From an uncultured Oscillospiraceae bacterium (lineage in GTDB: Bacteria > Bacillota > Clostridia > Oscillospirales > Oscillospiraceae), in the NCBI GenBank assembly GCA_949935795.1, contig CATLFX010000005.1:1-64000 (forward strand): DNA of 64,000 nucleotides, read 5' to 3'. The translations under genes and the position numbers were made by a program. The first letter of the stretch is position 1, and every line of letters begins with the position of its first letter. Below, one piece after another: positions 16,769 to 46,887 of the stretch. The notes under the pieces are model-generated. The model ran no database searches, was not told the origin of the DNA, and saw nothing but the letters and a program-made list of their open reading frames with translations.

Positions 16769-16799
16769 AAAAAAGAGGCGCGTCTTACGACGCGTCTCC
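16769..16799 (-). terminator. Terminator of the ATPase gene at 16785-17600
   Basis: Stem GACGCGCCTC with GAGACGCGTC around the loop GTAA, then six T on the minus strand. It overlaps the stop codon of the minus-strand gene, which lies in the loop. It sits 20 bp past the integrase stop, so may also end that transcript. Confidence 0.8.
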
Positions 16800-17600
16800 G
16801 GAGCCGTTCTTTTCTCTCCAGCCGCCCTGCGGCCCAAAAACGTTCGGGGGCAGCAGGTCGCTGAGGGCGACGAGCTCCTCGTCAAACCCCCCCTGGTCCC
16901 AGGCCAGGGCGGGCGTCTCGCACACCGTCCCCCCCGGCACGCCCAGGGGAATGGACGCCACCACCCGCAGCCCCCGTCCGGGGGCGCAGTCGGCCACCAG
17001 CGCGCCGCCGTGGAGGTCGGCCACCCGGCGGGCGATGGCCACGCCCACCCCGCCCCGCCGCCAGTCGGGGACAGCCTCCCCTTCGCTGGAAAACAGGCGG
17101 TTCAGCTGCTCCATGTCCACCCCCGGCCCGTCGTCCTCCACGGTGAACACCGCCCGCTGCTCATACTGGGTCAGGGTCAGGGTGACCTGCTTGCCCGCCT
17201 TGGCGGCATTGGACACCAGCTCCATCAGCATTTGGCGGATCAAGCCCTCGTCCACCAGCGCGCCCATCCACTCGGGGGCCTTCACCGTCAGCTCCACGCC
17301 GATCTCGGCCAGCAGCCGCCCCAGCCGCTCCCCCAGGCCGCGGGCCAGCTGGGCCAGGTCGGTGAGGCTGTACTCCAGCTGGACCGGGGCGCCGTCTCCC
17401 AGCCGGGCCGACAGCTCCAGCCGTCCCACAATGCGCAGCATGCGGCAGATGCCCTGGTCCATGATGGCCAGATACCGCCGGGCCTTTTCGCTCGCGGCCG
17501 TCTGCTCCAGCACCTGAGCGGCCATCGACAGCTGGGCCAGCTGCTTGCGCAGCTCCATCGCGGTCCGGGCCGCGCCCTGGCCGATGTCTGTTTTGTCCAC
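16785..17600 (-). CDS. Histidine-kinase-like ATPase without a phospho-acceptor His
   Basis: 271 aa, soluble, no membrane segment or sensor domain. The C-terminal two-thirds form a GHKL ATPase: N box MELVSNAAKAG (Asn131), G1 box EDDGPGVD (156-162), G2 box GGVGVAIA (183-190) and a final HGGALVADCAPGRGLRV. The N-terminal helical region that should hold the phosphorylated histidine (about 16-65) contains no histidine at all. Likely start is GTG 17600 after AAAGGGGG. So it may be a non-catalytic partner, an anti-sigma-like kinase or a decayed kinase. Its promoter is followed at once by two Spo0A-type boxes, which ties its expression to sporulation control. No response regulator is adjacent. Confidence 0.8.
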   Translation of the reverse strand: MDKTDIGQGAARTAMELRKQLAQLSMAAQVLEQTAASEKARRYLAIMDQGICRMLRIVGRLELSARLGDGAPVQLEYSLTDLAQLARGLGERLGRLLAEIGVELTVKAPEWMGALVDEGLIRQMLMELVSNAAKAGKQVTLTLTQYEQRAVFTVEDDGPGVDMEQLNRLFSSEGEAVPDWRRGGVGVAIARRVADLHGGALVADCAPGRGLRVVASIPLGVPGGTVCETPALAWDQGGFDEELVALSDLLPPNVFGPQGGWREKNGSGDAS

Positions 17601-17680: not shown

Positions 17681-17697
17681 TGTCGAATTTTGTCGAA
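17681..17697 (-). promoter_or_regulatory. Tandem Spo0A-type boxes
   Basis: Two perfect TGTCGAA heptamers 10 bp apart (17681-17687 and 17691-17697), just downstream of the -10 of the ATPase gene. The 17-bp sequence is identical to that at 45449-45465. This placement would let Spo0A~P block transcription. Known: TGTCGAA is the 0A box core. Inferred: the regulator and the direction of control. Confidence 0.7.
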
Positions 17698-17705
17698 TTT
17701 TGTTC

Positions 17706-17734
17706 ATTGTACCAGACCCGGCCCCATTTGGCAA
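17706..17734 (-). promoter_or_regulatory. Sigma-A promoter of the ATPase gene
   Basis: TTGCCA (17729-17734), 17-bp spacer, TACAAT (17706-17711), reading toward 17600. The tandem 0A boxes begin 9 bp beyond the -10. Confidence 0.75.
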
Positions 17735-23319: not shown

Positions 23320-23348
23320 TTGTCAGACCGTGTCGAATTATGTAAAAT
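23320..23348 (+). promoter_or_regulatory. Promoter of the SLH-GH25 gene with a single Spo0A-type box
   Basis: TTGTCA (23320-23325), 17-bp spacer, TAAAAT (23343-23348), 45 nt before the ATG. A TGTCGAA heptamer (23331-23337) sits in the spacer. A lone 7-mer may be chance; its position inside the spacer is what makes it worth noting. Confidence 0.65.
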
Positions 23349-23393: not shown

Positions 23394-24869
23394 ATGAAAA
23401 AACGCGTCGCAGTCCTAGCCCTGGCCGTCCTGCTGGCGGCCTCCTCCAGCACCACCGCCATGGCCACCCCCGGCCAGATGTCCCCCTTTGTGGATCTGGC
23501 GGTGGACCACTGGTCCTATCCATACGTCAGCGAGCTGTACGCCCAGGGCGTGGTGGGCGGGGACCCGGAGGGCACCTTCCGGGGCACGGACCCGGTGACC
23601 TGGGGGGAGACCTTTAAGCTAATCCTGCTGGCCATCGGCGAAGAGACCCCCGAGCGGGTGCCCGACACCCACTGGGCCTACTGCTACATCCAGCCCGCCC
23701 TGGACAACCGGCTGGTCTATTCCTTCGACGAAACCTACCTGGACGGCATCCCCACGCGGCTGGACGTGGCCCGGATGGCCGCCCGGGCCCTGGACCTCAC
23801 TGACATCTCCGGGGACAGCCCCTACGTGGACTGCAATGACGGCTATGTGGTGGAACTCTACGAAAAGGGCATTATGGAGGGCGTGCTGGAGGCCGACGGG
23901 AACCGCTATTTTTACCCTGACCAGCCCATCGTCCGGGAGGAAATCGCCACAGTGGTGTGGCGGCTGATGAACGCGGAGTATACCGGCGGTATGTTCCGTT
24001 TCAATAATTACTGGCTGGATTTGCTGGAGGGGGTGCCGCTCACCTCCTTCCGCGACGAGCAGTTTGCCAAGGACGAGCTGGGCCGGGTGGTCTACACCGG
24101 GGGCTACTACACCCGGGGCATCGACGTGTCCGGCCACAAGCAGGAGATCGACTGGAACGCGGTGGCGGCGGACAAGATCGACTTCGCCATCATCCGGGCG
24201 GGCAACCGGCTGTACGGCAAGGACAGCAGCGGCGCGGTGTGCGAGGACTCCTGGTTCGACCGCAACATGCAGGGGGCCATCGCCGCCGGAATGGACGTGG
24301 GGGCCTATTTCTTCTCCAACGCCATCACCGTGGAGGAGGCCATCGAGGAGGCGGACTTCTTCCTGGCCAAGCTGGAGCCCTACCGCCAGTACATCACCTA
24401 TCCCGTGGTCTGCGACTGGGAGTTCCTGGGGGGGAAGAACTCCCGGGCCTACGGGGTGGACGCCAAGATCATCACCCAGTGCGTGGCCGCCTTCTGCCAG
24501 CGGGTGGAGGACGCGGGCTACCAGCCCATGTTCTACTGCAACGACTACTGCGGCTACGTGAAATTCGACCTGAGCAAGCTCACCCGTTGGCCCTGCTGGT
24601 ACGCCGAGTACGCCGATACCCCCGATTTCCGCTACGATTTCCAGATGTGGCAGTTCTCCTCCAAGGGGAAAGTGGCGGGCATCAGCTCCGACGTGGACAT
24701 GAACCTGTGTTTCATCCCCTTTGAGGGGGCGAACCGCCGCCCGCCGGACGCTCCCCTGCCCCAAGGCCCCTGGACGCCTCCGGCCTCCCAGCCAACCACG
24801 GAGCCGGAGCCCGGAGCCTCCCAGACGGCGGAGCCGCAGAACACCCCTCCCGCATGGCTTCAGCCCTGA
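23394..24869 (+). CDS. Secreted SLH-domain GH25 lysozyme
   Basis: 491 aa. Signal peptide 1-24 (KKR then a hydrophobic core, cut near AMA). Residues 31-200 hold about three S-layer homology repeats (FVDLAVDHWSYPYVSELYAQGVV…; VPDTHWAYCYIQPALDNRLV; YVDCNDGYVVELYEKGIMEG) that bind secondary wall polymer. Residues 240-440 are a glycoside hydrolase family 25 domain with GIDVS (Asp244) and the catalytic DWE at 341-343. A Pro/Thr-rich tail ends the protein. It should cut the glycan strands at the cell surface. Monocistronic, followed by a bidirectional terminator. Confidence 0.93.
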   Translation: MKKRVAVLALAVLLAASSSTTAMATPGQMSPFVDLAVDHWSYPYVSELYAQGVVGGDPEGTFRGTDPVTWGETFKLILLAIGEETPERVPDTHWAYCYIQPALDNRLVYSFDETYLDGIPTRLDVARMAARALDLTDISGDSPYVDCNDGYVVELYEKGIMEGVLEADGNRYFYPDQPIVREEIATVVWRLMNAEYTGGMFRFNNYWLDLLEGVPLTSFRDEQFAKDELGRVVYTGGYYTRGIDVSGHKQEIDWNAVAADKIDFAIIRAGNRLYGKDSSGAVCEDSWFDRNMQGAIAAGMDVGAYFFSNAITVEEAIEEADFFLAKLEPYRQYITYPVVCDWEFLGGKNSRAYGVDAKIITQCVAAFCQRVEDAGYQPMFYCNDYCGYVKFDLSKLTRWPCWYAEYADTPDFRYDFQMWQFSSKGKVAGISSDVDMNLCFIPFEGANRRPPDAPLPQGPWTPPASQPTTEPEPGASQTAEPQNTPPAWLQP

Positions 24870-30569: not shown

Positions 30570-30687
30570 GGATTTCCAGCCCTTGACACCCCTTGACGAT
30601 TTGTACAAATTCTCACTGGCTTCAAAATTAAAATTATAAAATTCATACAATCCCTTCAGGTTGTCGAATGCTTTTTCCCCAGCGGCC

Positions 30688-30793: not shown

Positions 30794-32302
<1,509 letters not shown>

Positions 32303-44337: not shown

Positions 44338-45405
44338 TCACTTTATCTTGGGGTAGCCGAAGGTGACCTGCTCCACGCCGGGGTGGAGGGCGGAGAAGGT
44401 GTACCCCGCGTTCTGGTAGCCCTGGATGACGGCGGGCAGGGCGTCCACAGTGGTGGACCGGGCGGCGCTGTCGTGGCACAGCACCACCACTAGCTCCCGG
44501 CCCACTCCTCTCAGGCAGTCGGCGGCGATCTCCCAGGCGGGGCGGGGGCGGACGGTGGCGTCCTGGGCGGAGGCGTTCCAATCGTAGTAGGCGAACCCCC
44601 GGCGGGTCATCTCGGCAATGATCTCCTGGTACACCCCCCGGTCGTAGCCGTTGAGGCTCCCGCCTGGGAAGCGGTACACCGACGGGTACACCCCGGTAAC
44701 CTGGTAAATCCACTGGTACAGGCTGTTGAACTCCTCCAGGAAGGCGTCCACCGATGCGTAGACCTTTTTGTAGTCGTGGCTCCAGCTGTGCATTCCGATG
44801 GCGTGGCCCGCCGCCACGATTTTTTTCATCCGCTCCTGGCTGGCGGCGGAGGTGGAGCTGCTGCCCACCACAAAAAAGGTGGCCTTGACGCCGTACCGGT
44901 CCAAAATCTCCAGCACCCGGTCGGTGTTGGCCGACGGCCCGTCATCAAAAGTGAGACAGCACACCTTCCCGCCGGTGACCGCCTCCCCCTCCCAGGCCGG
45001 GGCGCAGAAATCGGGGTAGAGCTGGGTGTACTCGGGGACGGCGCCGTCGGGGGCGGCGATGGAATACTCCTTCAGCACGTCGATGGTACCCTGGGCCTGG
45101 GCCAGCTCCGTTTCCCGCTGGGCCAGTTCGCCCTTGGTCCGGTTAAGCTCCCTCTCCAGGCGGTCTGACCGCTCCTGAGCCGCGCTCTGCGTGTCCAAGA
45201 CCATCCCCAGCTGGACGGCGTAGCCGTGCCTCTGGCAGGCGAAGGAAAACGCCAGCAGGCCGCACGCCAGCGCCAGCGCCACAGCCAGAGCGGTGACGGC
45301 GACGAACAGGGGCCTGGGTACGCCCCGGGGGGGAGCCGCATTCACCGCCTTTTCCAGCTCCGCCGGCCTGTCCAGCCCTGTGTTGTGTTCCGCCATGTGG
45401 TCCAT
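44338..45405 (-). CDS. Membrane-anchored polysaccharide deacetylase (NodB/CE4)
   Basis: 355 aa. One N-terminal transmembrane helix (about 33-56), a coiled coil (70-110, QSAAQERSDRLERELNRTKGELAQRETELAQAQ), then a NodB domain. CE4 motifs: LTFDDGPS (metal Asp pair), HSWSHDY (His ligands), YRFPGGS (Arg), and LVVVLCHDS. It should remove acetyl groups from peptidoglycan or a surface glycan outside the membrane. The promoter spacer consists of two Spo0A boxes, which suggests control during sporulation entry. Start could also be ATG 45396. Confidence 0.93.
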   Translation of the reverse strand: MDHMAEHNTGLDRPAELEKAVNAAPPRGVPRPLFVAVTALAVALALACGLLAFSFACQRHGYAVQLGMVLDTQSAAQERSDRLERELNRTKGELAQRETELAQAQGTIDVLKEYSIAAPDGAVPEYTQLYPDFCAPAWEGEAVTGGKVCCLTFDDGPSANTDRVLEILDRYGVKATFFVVGSSSTSAASQERMKKIVAAGHAIGMHSWSHDYKKVYASVDAFLEEFNSLYQWIYQVTGVYPSVYRFPGGSLNGYDRGVYQEIIAEMTRRGFAYYDWNASAQDATVRPRPAWEIAADCLRGVGRELVVVLCHDSAARSTTVDALPAVIQGYQNAGYTFSALHPGVEQVTFGYPKIK

Positions 45406-45442: not shown

Positions 45443-45471
45443 AGTATATGTCGAATTTTGTCGAAAGTCAA
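45443..45471 (-). promoter_or_regulatory. Promoter of the deacetylase whose spacer is two Spo0A-type boxes
   Basis: TTGACT (45466-45471) and TATACT (45443-45448) with a 17-bp spacer. The spacer, 45449-45465, is exactly TGTCGAATTTTGTCGAA, two 0A boxes 10 bp apart, identical to 17681-17697. Bound Spo0A would cover the promoter face, which predicts repression. Confidence 0.8.
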
Positions 45472-45554
45472 TGGGGAGTACTACATTGTAAACCAACTGT
45501 AACCAGTGAAACCATTCCGTTTCCAATTTGTAATCCGCCCGCTGAAAACGGGCC

Positions 45555-45600: not shown

Positions 45601-46776
45601 CTATTCCTTATCGTATTTTATCCGCCCGTAATACCACCCTGTTATCCCGTTTTTCTTCACCAGGAGACCCCGCCGGGTCTGCCGCACCAGGGACAGCCTG
45701 TCCCCGGGGGACACGGGCAGGGCGTAGTCGGTGGCGTCCTCGGTATGGGTCCGGCCGTCCCGCCATGTGCTGACAAAGTCCTGGGGCAGCCACAGCGTCC
45801 GCCCCGAGGCGGGATGGCGGATCTGGACGCAGTCCCCCTCCTCGCCCAGCACCTCCACCACGCTGTCCGACCAGCGGATATTCAAGGGGTCTGCCGACGG
45901 CGCCTGGGGGTCCAGGGCGGCGGCCTCGGGCAGGCCGTCGTACCAAACGCAGTCCATCTCGTCCCCGCATATGTCCGGGATGAGCAGGGCGTTGAGCTGG
46001 CCGTCCACCTTGAGCACACAGCCCCCGTCGATGGAGGCAATGTGCCGCTTCTCGTCGATGAGAGGGGCCGAGCGCTGGATGGCGCGGTTGTAGAGGGTGA
46101 CGGGCCAGTGTCCCACCACCACCCACTTTTGGAAGCTGTGCCCCTGACCCATGAAATCGTCGTTTTTCATGCAGCCATAGGCGGTCAGCTCCTCCAGGCA
46201 GTCCTCCCGGGGGACTCCGCCGTGGACGAAAATGAAATTCCCCGCCTCCAAAATGTGGGGCATGCCCAGGAGAAACCCCGTCTCCTCCGGGAAGCGTTCC
46301 AACAGGGCGGACCGCAGGGCGGGGAGGTCTTCCATATGCCGGGGGACCGCCCCGATCTCCGCCGCCATCTGCATCAGCACCGAGCGCTCCCGCCAGAACT
46401 CCGACAGGATGGGCCACAGCTCCTCGTCCACGCTGGCATAGTCCGCCGGGGAGCCGTACCGCCTGTTCATCTGGATGGAAAAGGCGTCGTCCGGCTTTCC
46501 CCCCTCCAGGAACATCCGGTCAATGTAATCGCAGTTACCGCACAGGGTATAGACCGTGTGGGTTTTTTGCAGCTCCAGCACATAGCGCAGGGTAGCCAGG
46601 CTGTCCCGCCCCTTTTCCAGCAGGTCGCCCACGATGATAAGCACATCGTCCGGGGTAAACTGGATTTTTTCCAGAATTCCCTTCAAAAAGGGCAGGTTTC
46701 CGTGGATATCGCTGACGGCGGCCACGCGGCGGCCCGGCTCAATGGCCGGGCGGATGACTTGGGCGGGACGGGGCAT
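45601..46776 (-). CDS. Calcineurin-like metallophosphoesterase with C-terminal SH3-like module
   Basis: 391 aa. Phosphoesterase motifs: AVSDIHGN, VGDLLEKGRDS, GNCDYID, VHGG and VVGHWP, the diadenosine-tetraphosphatase/PrpE-like set of metal ligands. The C-terminal 110 residues (VVEVLGEEGDCVQIRHP…, ending GITGWYYGRIKYDKE) look like two small SH3-type modules. No signal peptide, so cytoplasmic. The start is ATG 46776 because AGGAGG precedes it; an in-frame Met 7 residues earlier lacks such a site. Substrate unknown. Confidence 0.85.
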   Translation of the reverse strand: MPRPAQVIRPAIEPGRRVAAVSDIHGNLPFLKGILEKIQFTPDDVLIIVGDLLEKGRDSLATLRYVLELQKTHTVYTLCGNCDYIDRMFLEGGKPDDAFSIQMNRRYGSPADYASVDEELWPILSEFWRERSVLMQMAAEIGAVPRHMEDLPALRSALLERFPEETGFLLGMPHILEAGNFIFVHGGVPREDCLEELTAYGCMKNDDFMGQGHSFQKWVVVGHWPVTLYNRAIQRSAPLIDEKRHIASIDGGCVLKVDGQLNALLIPDICGDEMDCVWYDGLPEAAALDPQAPSADPLNIRWSDSVVEVLGEEGDCVQIRHPASGRTLWLPQDFVSTWRDGRTHTEDATDYALPVSPGDRLSLVRQTRRGLLVKKNGITGWYYGRIKYDKE

Positions 46777-46887
46777 GGGCAAAGCCTCCTCTTGCATACA
46801 GCGTTTTCTAACATTCTACCACAAGAAAAGCAGGTTTTCCAGCCCGCATATTATTTACAATTTCCTCTTTTTTCTGCCTGGGGGTTG

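Follow-up and report, generated by a model that had tools for sequence, protein, structure and literature searches.

Two tandem 0A boxes fill the promoter spacer of a predicted peptidoglycan deacetylase gene in Oscillospiraceae-type Clostridia: a putative Spo0A operator

The spacer between the -35 and -10 hexamers of a predicted deacetylase promoter was found to consist of two 0A boxes placed 10 bp apart (45449-45465 of the window, the 64,000-nucleotide stretch of DNA that was analysed). On the minus strand, which carries the gene, the promoter reads TTGACT-TTCGACAAAATTCGACA-TATACT over positions 45443-45471, with a spacer of 17 bp. The plus strand reads AGTATA TGTCGAATTTTGTCGAA AGTCAA and contains exact copies of the box TGTCGAA at 45449-45455 and 45459-45465. 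The first-pass annotation had described the spacer as exactly two 0A cores 10 bp apart between TTGACT and TATACT; its letters are right, and were given in the plus orientation. Boxes that overlap a vegetative-type promoter, or lie just downstream of it, are the layout of Spo0A-repressed promoters, and here the boxes fill the TTGACT-17-TATACT spacer. It is likely that this spacer is a Spo0A operator, on which Spo0A~P would bind and repress the deacetylase gene early in sporulation, which supports the reading given in the first-pass annotation. The elements are the following.

44338-45405, minus strand: PgdA-like polysaccharide (probably peptidoglycan) deacetylase gene, 355 residues, with PF01522 (Polysacc_deac_1) at residues 144-254
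45443-45448, minus strand: -10 hexamer TATACT, invariant in 15 of 15 aligned promoters
45449-45455, plus strand: 0A box 2, TGTCGAA, adjoining the -10, with its core invariant in 15 of 15
45459-45465, plus strand: 0A box 1, adjoining the -35, TGTCGAA on the plus strand and TTCGACA on the gene strand, with the core TTCGAC invariant in 15 of 15 and the seventh base A in 14 of 15
45466-45471, minus strand: -35 hexamer TTGACT; all 15 aligned promoters share TTGA and the last T, with C or T as fifth base
45601-46797, minus strand: metallophosphatase gene upstream of the deacetylase gene

Within the 64 kb there are exactly two occurrences of the tandem pattern TGTCGAANNNTGTCGAA, at 45449 and 17681. 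These positions are also the sole ones at which the 2.24-Mb assembly, with a completeness of about 70%, contains the exact 17-mer. Two matches to TTGACN-N17-TATANT were found in the window where 0.00 were expected from 100 shuffles. A tandem core lies in the spacer of only one of the 23 sigma-70-like sites of the window (17-bp spacer, at most three mismatches), and none of 2,000,000 letter shuffles of the deacetylase spacer regenerated TTCGAC-N4-TTCGAC. A chance origin of the boxes was rejected on the basis of the shuffle controls and of the count of two in 64 kb. A repeat or mobile element was likewise rejected as the source of the common 17-mer, since the two copies in the window lie in promoters with different flanks. 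A match with two mismatches at C2:98838 was discarded, as it begins at a likely start codon and lies within coding sequence.

Two other places in the window carry 0A-like sequence. A promoter-like TTGTCA-17-TAAAAT (23320-23348, plus strand) stands upstream of a gene with SLH and GH25 domains (23394-24869); its spacer holds a perfect 0A core TGTCGAA at 23331-23337, preceded by a weaker TGTCAGA 10 bp before. A single TTGTCGAA is found at 30661-30668 (plus strand), upstream of a gene whose start is near 30809.

The deacetylase begins with a membrane segment, recognized by eye, which is followed by a NodB/CE4 catalytic domain (PF01522, 98.6 bits against a cut-off of 23.1). The motifs TFDDGP and HSWSH, also found by eye, presumably form the metal site. 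The best relatives of solved structure are peptidoglycan GlcNAc deacetylases (5jmu, E-value 2.8e-35; 5nc9, E-value 1.1e-24), with which the protein has the deacetylase domain in common over residues 138-342 or so. It differs from these PgdA-type enzymes in falling below the NCBIfam equivalog cut-offs: its best model, NF045822, scored 115.7 bits where 400 are required, so that the protein is not filed as an equivalog. The first-pass annotation had called the product a surface-glycan deacetylase; judged by the nearest solved enzymes, the substrate is probably peptidoglycan. In other bacteria, deacetylation of peptidoglycan confers resistance to lysozyme.

Homologues were gathered by protein search, independently of the boxes, which gave 33 named loci. 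The pair of boxes is in place between TTGA[CT]T and TATACT in 14 of them (L008-L020 and L022), where TTCGACANNNTTCGAC is exact in 13 and has one mismatch in L011. The metallophosphatase gene adjoins the deacetylase gene in all 14 box-bearing loci and was not found in the remaining 19, three of which (L024, L028 and L034) hold less than 2 kb of upstream sequence. The promoters of the window and of these 14 loci were aligned (15 promoters, 105 pairs). The spacers have a mean pairwise identity of 94%, whereas the flanks reach 48% (30 bp downstream) and 50% (75 bp upstream). Each of the 12 letters of the two TTCGAC cores is invariant, as is TATACT; variation is confined to the linker, to the seventh position of box 1, to the fifth position of the -35 and to the base abutting the -10. 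The latter, on the gene strand, is A in the window, C in 13 promoters and T in one, so that on the equivalent of the plus strand box 2 of the 14 relatives reads GGTCGAA (13) or AGTCGAA (1). Both boxes are thus perfect solely in the window, and the earlier description of two perfect cores applies there, the relatives having an imperfect box 2 beside the -10. The base that drifts is position 1 of the box. In Clostridioides difficile, Spo0A contacts G2, C4 and G5 of TGTCGAA (PMC3485338), and these three are invariant in 15 of 15 promoters.

The other 19 named loci lack the pair in the spacer. L021 (64% identity) has one box in the same place (TTGATTTTCGACAAG...TACACT). L023 (60% identity) has none, and its gene starts close behind another frame, as judged by eye. 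In the other 17 named loci (36-53% identity), the best upstream match in the same orientation has 4-6 mismatches of 13. One of the distant loci, L039 (36% identity), carries at 2699-2715 a tandem 0A match with two mismatches in the opposite orientation, about 90 bp before the first possible start codon, where it overlaps a -35-like TTGATT.

A candidate binding site for another regulator adjoins the promoter.

45487-45503, plus strand: WalR-type direct repeat TGTAAA-N5-TGTAAC, 15 bp upstream of the -35

It is the only match to TGTWAH-N5-TGTWAH in the 64 kb, where 0.00 were expected. The repeat is exact at the identical offset in 9 of the 15 promoters, that of the window included. In the 106,293 bases of L008-L023 the pattern has 11 matches, 8 of which are the ones at the promoter offset. 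PhoP-type proteins read repeats similar to the WalR box. The site in the window matches exactly the WalR/VicR consensus (PMC4168254), and is proposed from its letters as a candidate site.

Conservation was followed at closer range by a protein search of the genus of genome G402, in which 41 genomes yielded 26 loci in 25 genomes. The 17 closest of these loci (L172-L188) have the pair of boxes in the spacer, 15 exact to TTCGACANNNTTCGAC and two with one mismatch; 14 of the 17 box-bearing genomes are common to the named set, the additions being L173, L177 and L184. In L177, box 2 is TCCGAC, with the contacted bases G2, C4 and G5 intact. A search of related genomes for the spacer had been suggested as a check, and its outcome is thus largely positive, but not throughout. 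L189 (60% identity, TTGACT-17-TATACT) and L190 (56% identity, TTGATT-17-TATACT) keep the gene and the promoter while the boxes are absent, which is the very pattern that the first-pass annotation had set against its own proposal. In the protein tree the two stand outside the box-bearing group. As the support of this group is weak (64/97), a late gain of the boxes and their loss may equally account for the difference.

L189 and L190 also bear on the idea that the spacer letters are kept for the promoter itself, for instance for a spacer shape suited to the sigma factor, the likeness to 0A boxes being coincidental. Conservation of the two hexamers equals that of the boxes, which shows that the promoter is under selection as a whole. 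However, the two loci keep their hexamers with unrelated spacers, so the promoter does not need the box letters, and the tandem core recurs outside spacers at other promoters, far above its control (see below). Coincidence is therefore considered very improbable, the least probable of the readings discussed here, and a spacer kept as an operator is preferred.

In five more distant loci of the genus (L191-L195, 42-48% identity), the promoter is TTGACA-17-TAAACT and is followed, 6 to 11 bp after, by degenerate tandem cores, which are within two mismatches of 13 in four loci and have three in L191. When one strand of the nine loci L189-L197 was scanned (32,917 positions), no other site within two mismatches appeared. 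No boxes were found near the gene in L196, of which just 38 residues are readable, or in L197. Of 400 sampled genomes of the family of the window, only that of the window itself has the exact composite; the 399 without it include 8 of its own genus. Of 300 sampled genomes of the family of G402, only G402 has it. The composite thus marks a small sub-clade. That 8 same-genus genomes lack it most probably reflects a patchy distribution of the gene: 16 of the 41 genomes of the genus of G402, presumably the genus of the window too, have no deacetylase homologue at 1e-60. Among 29 further loci (L042-L070, homologues at 1e-30 from 150 genomes of the family of the window), three have a match with two mismatches somewhere and none a closer one.

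The genome of the window encodes two proteins with a Spo0A_C domain. One is Spo0A itself (L006), which aligns closely to the solved structures 1lq1 and 1fc3 with SRVERAIRHAIEVAW identical; by this alignment its DNA-reading helix matches the solved ones. Of 16 relatives, 14 gave a Spo0A_C match. No Spo0A was detected in G406 or G408, two genomes with the composite. As SpoIVA and SpoIIGA are present in both, the absence is tentatively read as assembly gaps, and was counted neither for nor against the proposal. SpoIVA was found in 18 of the 19 genomes searched, including that of the window, G406 and G408. SpoIIP was found in 15 of 17 genomes and SpoIIGA in 15 of 17, the latter not being found in the incomplete assembly of the window or in G413. 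G413, with its single box in L021 and with neither SpoIVA nor SpoIIGA found, had been considered as a natural experiment; it was dropped, since the genome does have SpoIIP and its assembly is possibly incomplete.

Sites resembling 0A boxes were also found at genes of sporulation. In the spo0A promoter, the inverted pair TTCGACA-N5-TGTCGAA is exact in 7 of 19 loci (L006, L077, L080, L084, L085, L086 and L090), has one mismatch in L088 and two in L083, and shows 4-6 mismatches in the remaining 10. The spoIIG operon is activated by Spo0A in Bacillus subtilis. Upstream of spoIIGA (n = 15), most regions contain degenerate repeats and a long spacer, as judged by eye. In several relatives, a degenerate TTTGAC-N4-TTTGAT is seen by eye upstream of TATAAT, with the same 10-bp repeat geometry as at the deacetylase gene. 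The boxes of spoIIG are weak and its spacer long, whereas the deacetylase promoter has strong boxes inside a 17-bp spacer.

The second Spo0A_C protein in the genome of the window (L007, 1450-1815, minus strand) has 121 residues and consists of the DNA-binding domain alone; extra Spo0A_C matches occur in several relatives. Such small proteins without receiver domain could be the main users of the sites, in which case control would be uncoupled from the phosphorylation of Spo0A. Tandem 0A-like boxes do lie upstream of 3 of the 14 loci scanned for these proteins (exact in L121, one mismatch in L105 and L106). On the other hand, six genomes that carry the composite (G402, G407, G410, G411, G412 and G414) each gave just one Spo0A_C match, whose reading frame could accommodate a full Spo0A, and the reading helix of the orphan proteins differs from that of Spo0A. 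Their being the main users is thus judged quite unlikely, and Spo0A is retained as the predicted binder.

The deacetylase promoter is one member of a wider set. The 16 genomes behind L008-L023 contain 48 sites matching TTCGACANNNTTCGAC, against 2 for the backward pattern, and at least one tandem site is present in 15 of the 16. Adding three sites of the genome of the window and merging three contexts whose flanks were identical left 48 distinct contexts for inspection. Thirty-eight fall into five classes, preceding genes for the deacetylase (12), a kinase-like protein (10), a DUF6514 protein (10), an ECF transporter (4) and a 284-residue protein (2). The other 10 were left unclassified; one of them, L121, precedes a gene for a Spo0A_C-only protein. 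The kinase-like class is represented in the window by the second copy of the 17-mer.

16785-17600, minus strand: soluble histidine-kinase-like gene behind the second operator (HATPase_c 67.1 bits; HisKA 24.6 bits, below the cut-off of 26.9)
17681-17697, plus strand: second copy of the 17-bp tandem operator, identical in sequence and following closely on a -10
17706-17711, minus strand: -10 hexamer TACAAT of the kinase-like gene, at a constant distance from the boxes in all 9 loci
17729-17734, minus strand: -35 hexamer TTGCCA of the kinase-like gene, likewise at a constant distance from the boxes in all 9 loci

Hexamers around the tandem sites were scanned with up to four mismatches for the two together. 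In the kinase-like class, all nine loci scanned, 17681 in the window among them, have a -10 that starts 14 bp ahead of the boxes and a -35 that starts 37 bp ahead. In the DUF6514 (8 of 8 loci), ECF (4 of 4) and 284-residue (2 of 2) classes, altogether 14 of 14, the pair starts 25-36 bp before a -35-like hexamer. The tandem pair therefore recurs in three repeated geometries: within the spacer at the deacetylase gene, right after the -10 at the kinase-like gene, and upstream of the -35 in the three other classes. Since the mode of action of Spo0A depends on the position of its site (PMC4168254), the deacetylase and kinase-like classes look repressed and the DUF6514, ECF and 284-residue classes look activated.

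The following course of events is proposed. In growing cells, the vegetative sigma factor would read the near-consensus TTGACT-17-TATACT. A promoter with such hexamers and a 17-bp spacer is expected to work without help, and its activity would perhaps be modulated by a WalR-type regulator sitting 15 bp upstream. The membrane-anchored PgdA-like deacetylase would then strip acetyl groups from the cell's own peptidoglycan. When phosphorylation of Spo0A rises, two Spo0A~P monomers would occupy the head-to-tail boxes between the -35 and the -10; as the sites are 10 bp apart, the two would lie on one face of the DNA. The bound Spo0A~P would block productive binding or opening by the polymerase, and the gene would be switched off early in sporulation. 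The boxes being kept almost letter for letter in close relatives, the gene is probably shut off upon commitment to the spore.

Exclusion of the polymerase is the simplest outcome, not the sole one. Activators of the MerR type bind spacers together with the polymerase. Spo0A could likewise bind and coexist with the polymerase, trapping the complex or even activating it. Such coexistence has parallels in B. subtilis, where abrB is inhibited by Spo0A without polymerase binding being prevented (title cited in PMC12090719), and where a 0A box overlapping the -10 of the Ps promoter has minimal effect (PMC12090719). In view of these precedents, the earlier statement that Spo0A~P could hardly bind without excluding RNA polymerase is plausible but not certain. 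Against coexistence, the spacer already has the optimal 17 bp between near-consensus hexamers, which leaves nothing to correct, and the tandem sites of the clade that look activating by their position sit upstream of the -35. Coexistence is thus held to be unlikely, though it is the best placed of the alternatives to repression by exclusion, which remains preferred.

That Spo0A represses genes from 0A boxes is already known; the present case adds a target, a layout in which the boxes fill the spacer, and a lineage. In B. subtilis, abrB is likewise a vegetative promoter turned down by Spo0A~P through TGTCGAA boxes (PMC12090719, PMC3485338). Its boxes are downstream of the promoter, where a roadblock has been proposed (PMC12090719), so that it is closer to the kinase-like gene at 17681, whereas the boxes of the deacetylase fill the spacer. 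Direct repression by Spo0A through upstream DNA has been described in a clostridial species for the sin locus of C. difficile (PMC7643835), which is a different gene, and the available part of that report notes no spacer-filling tandem pair. Neither Spo0A boxes filling a spacer nor control of a peptidoglycan deacetylase by Spo0A was met among the titles and abstract openings searched, a scope outside which most of the subscription literature lies.

A fuller version of the proposal is advanced tentatively, with the balance somewhat against it. Spo0A~P may directly shut off vegetative peptidoglycan deacetylation through the operator in the spacer, adjoined by a WalR-type growth signal, so that the glycan stays digestible for the enzymes of engulfment and germination; related deacetylase genes would be under the same control with the operator after the -10. 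The biological reason, namely that glycan strands should be digestible for sporulation enzymes, is a conjecture. If correct, cell-wall deacetylation would be tied to the decision to sporulate. The sites constitute, at the level of sequence, a directly testable set of Spo0A targets in uncultured Oscillospiraceae-type Clostridia. For each target, repression or activation is predicted from which of the three recurring positions the boxes take (the spacer, behind the -10, or ahead of the -35).

Two minor observations concern the wider set. The kinase-like protein keeps its ATPase domain, but all nine aligned homologues lack a histidine immediately ahead of the (E/Q)LR motif, the expected place of the phosphoacceptor. 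The product of 16785-17600 is possibly a pseudokinase under predicted control by Spo0A. In G410, three near-identical sites with tandem boxes (L136, L143 and L144) lie in a repeated stretch, which is possibly a repeated element.
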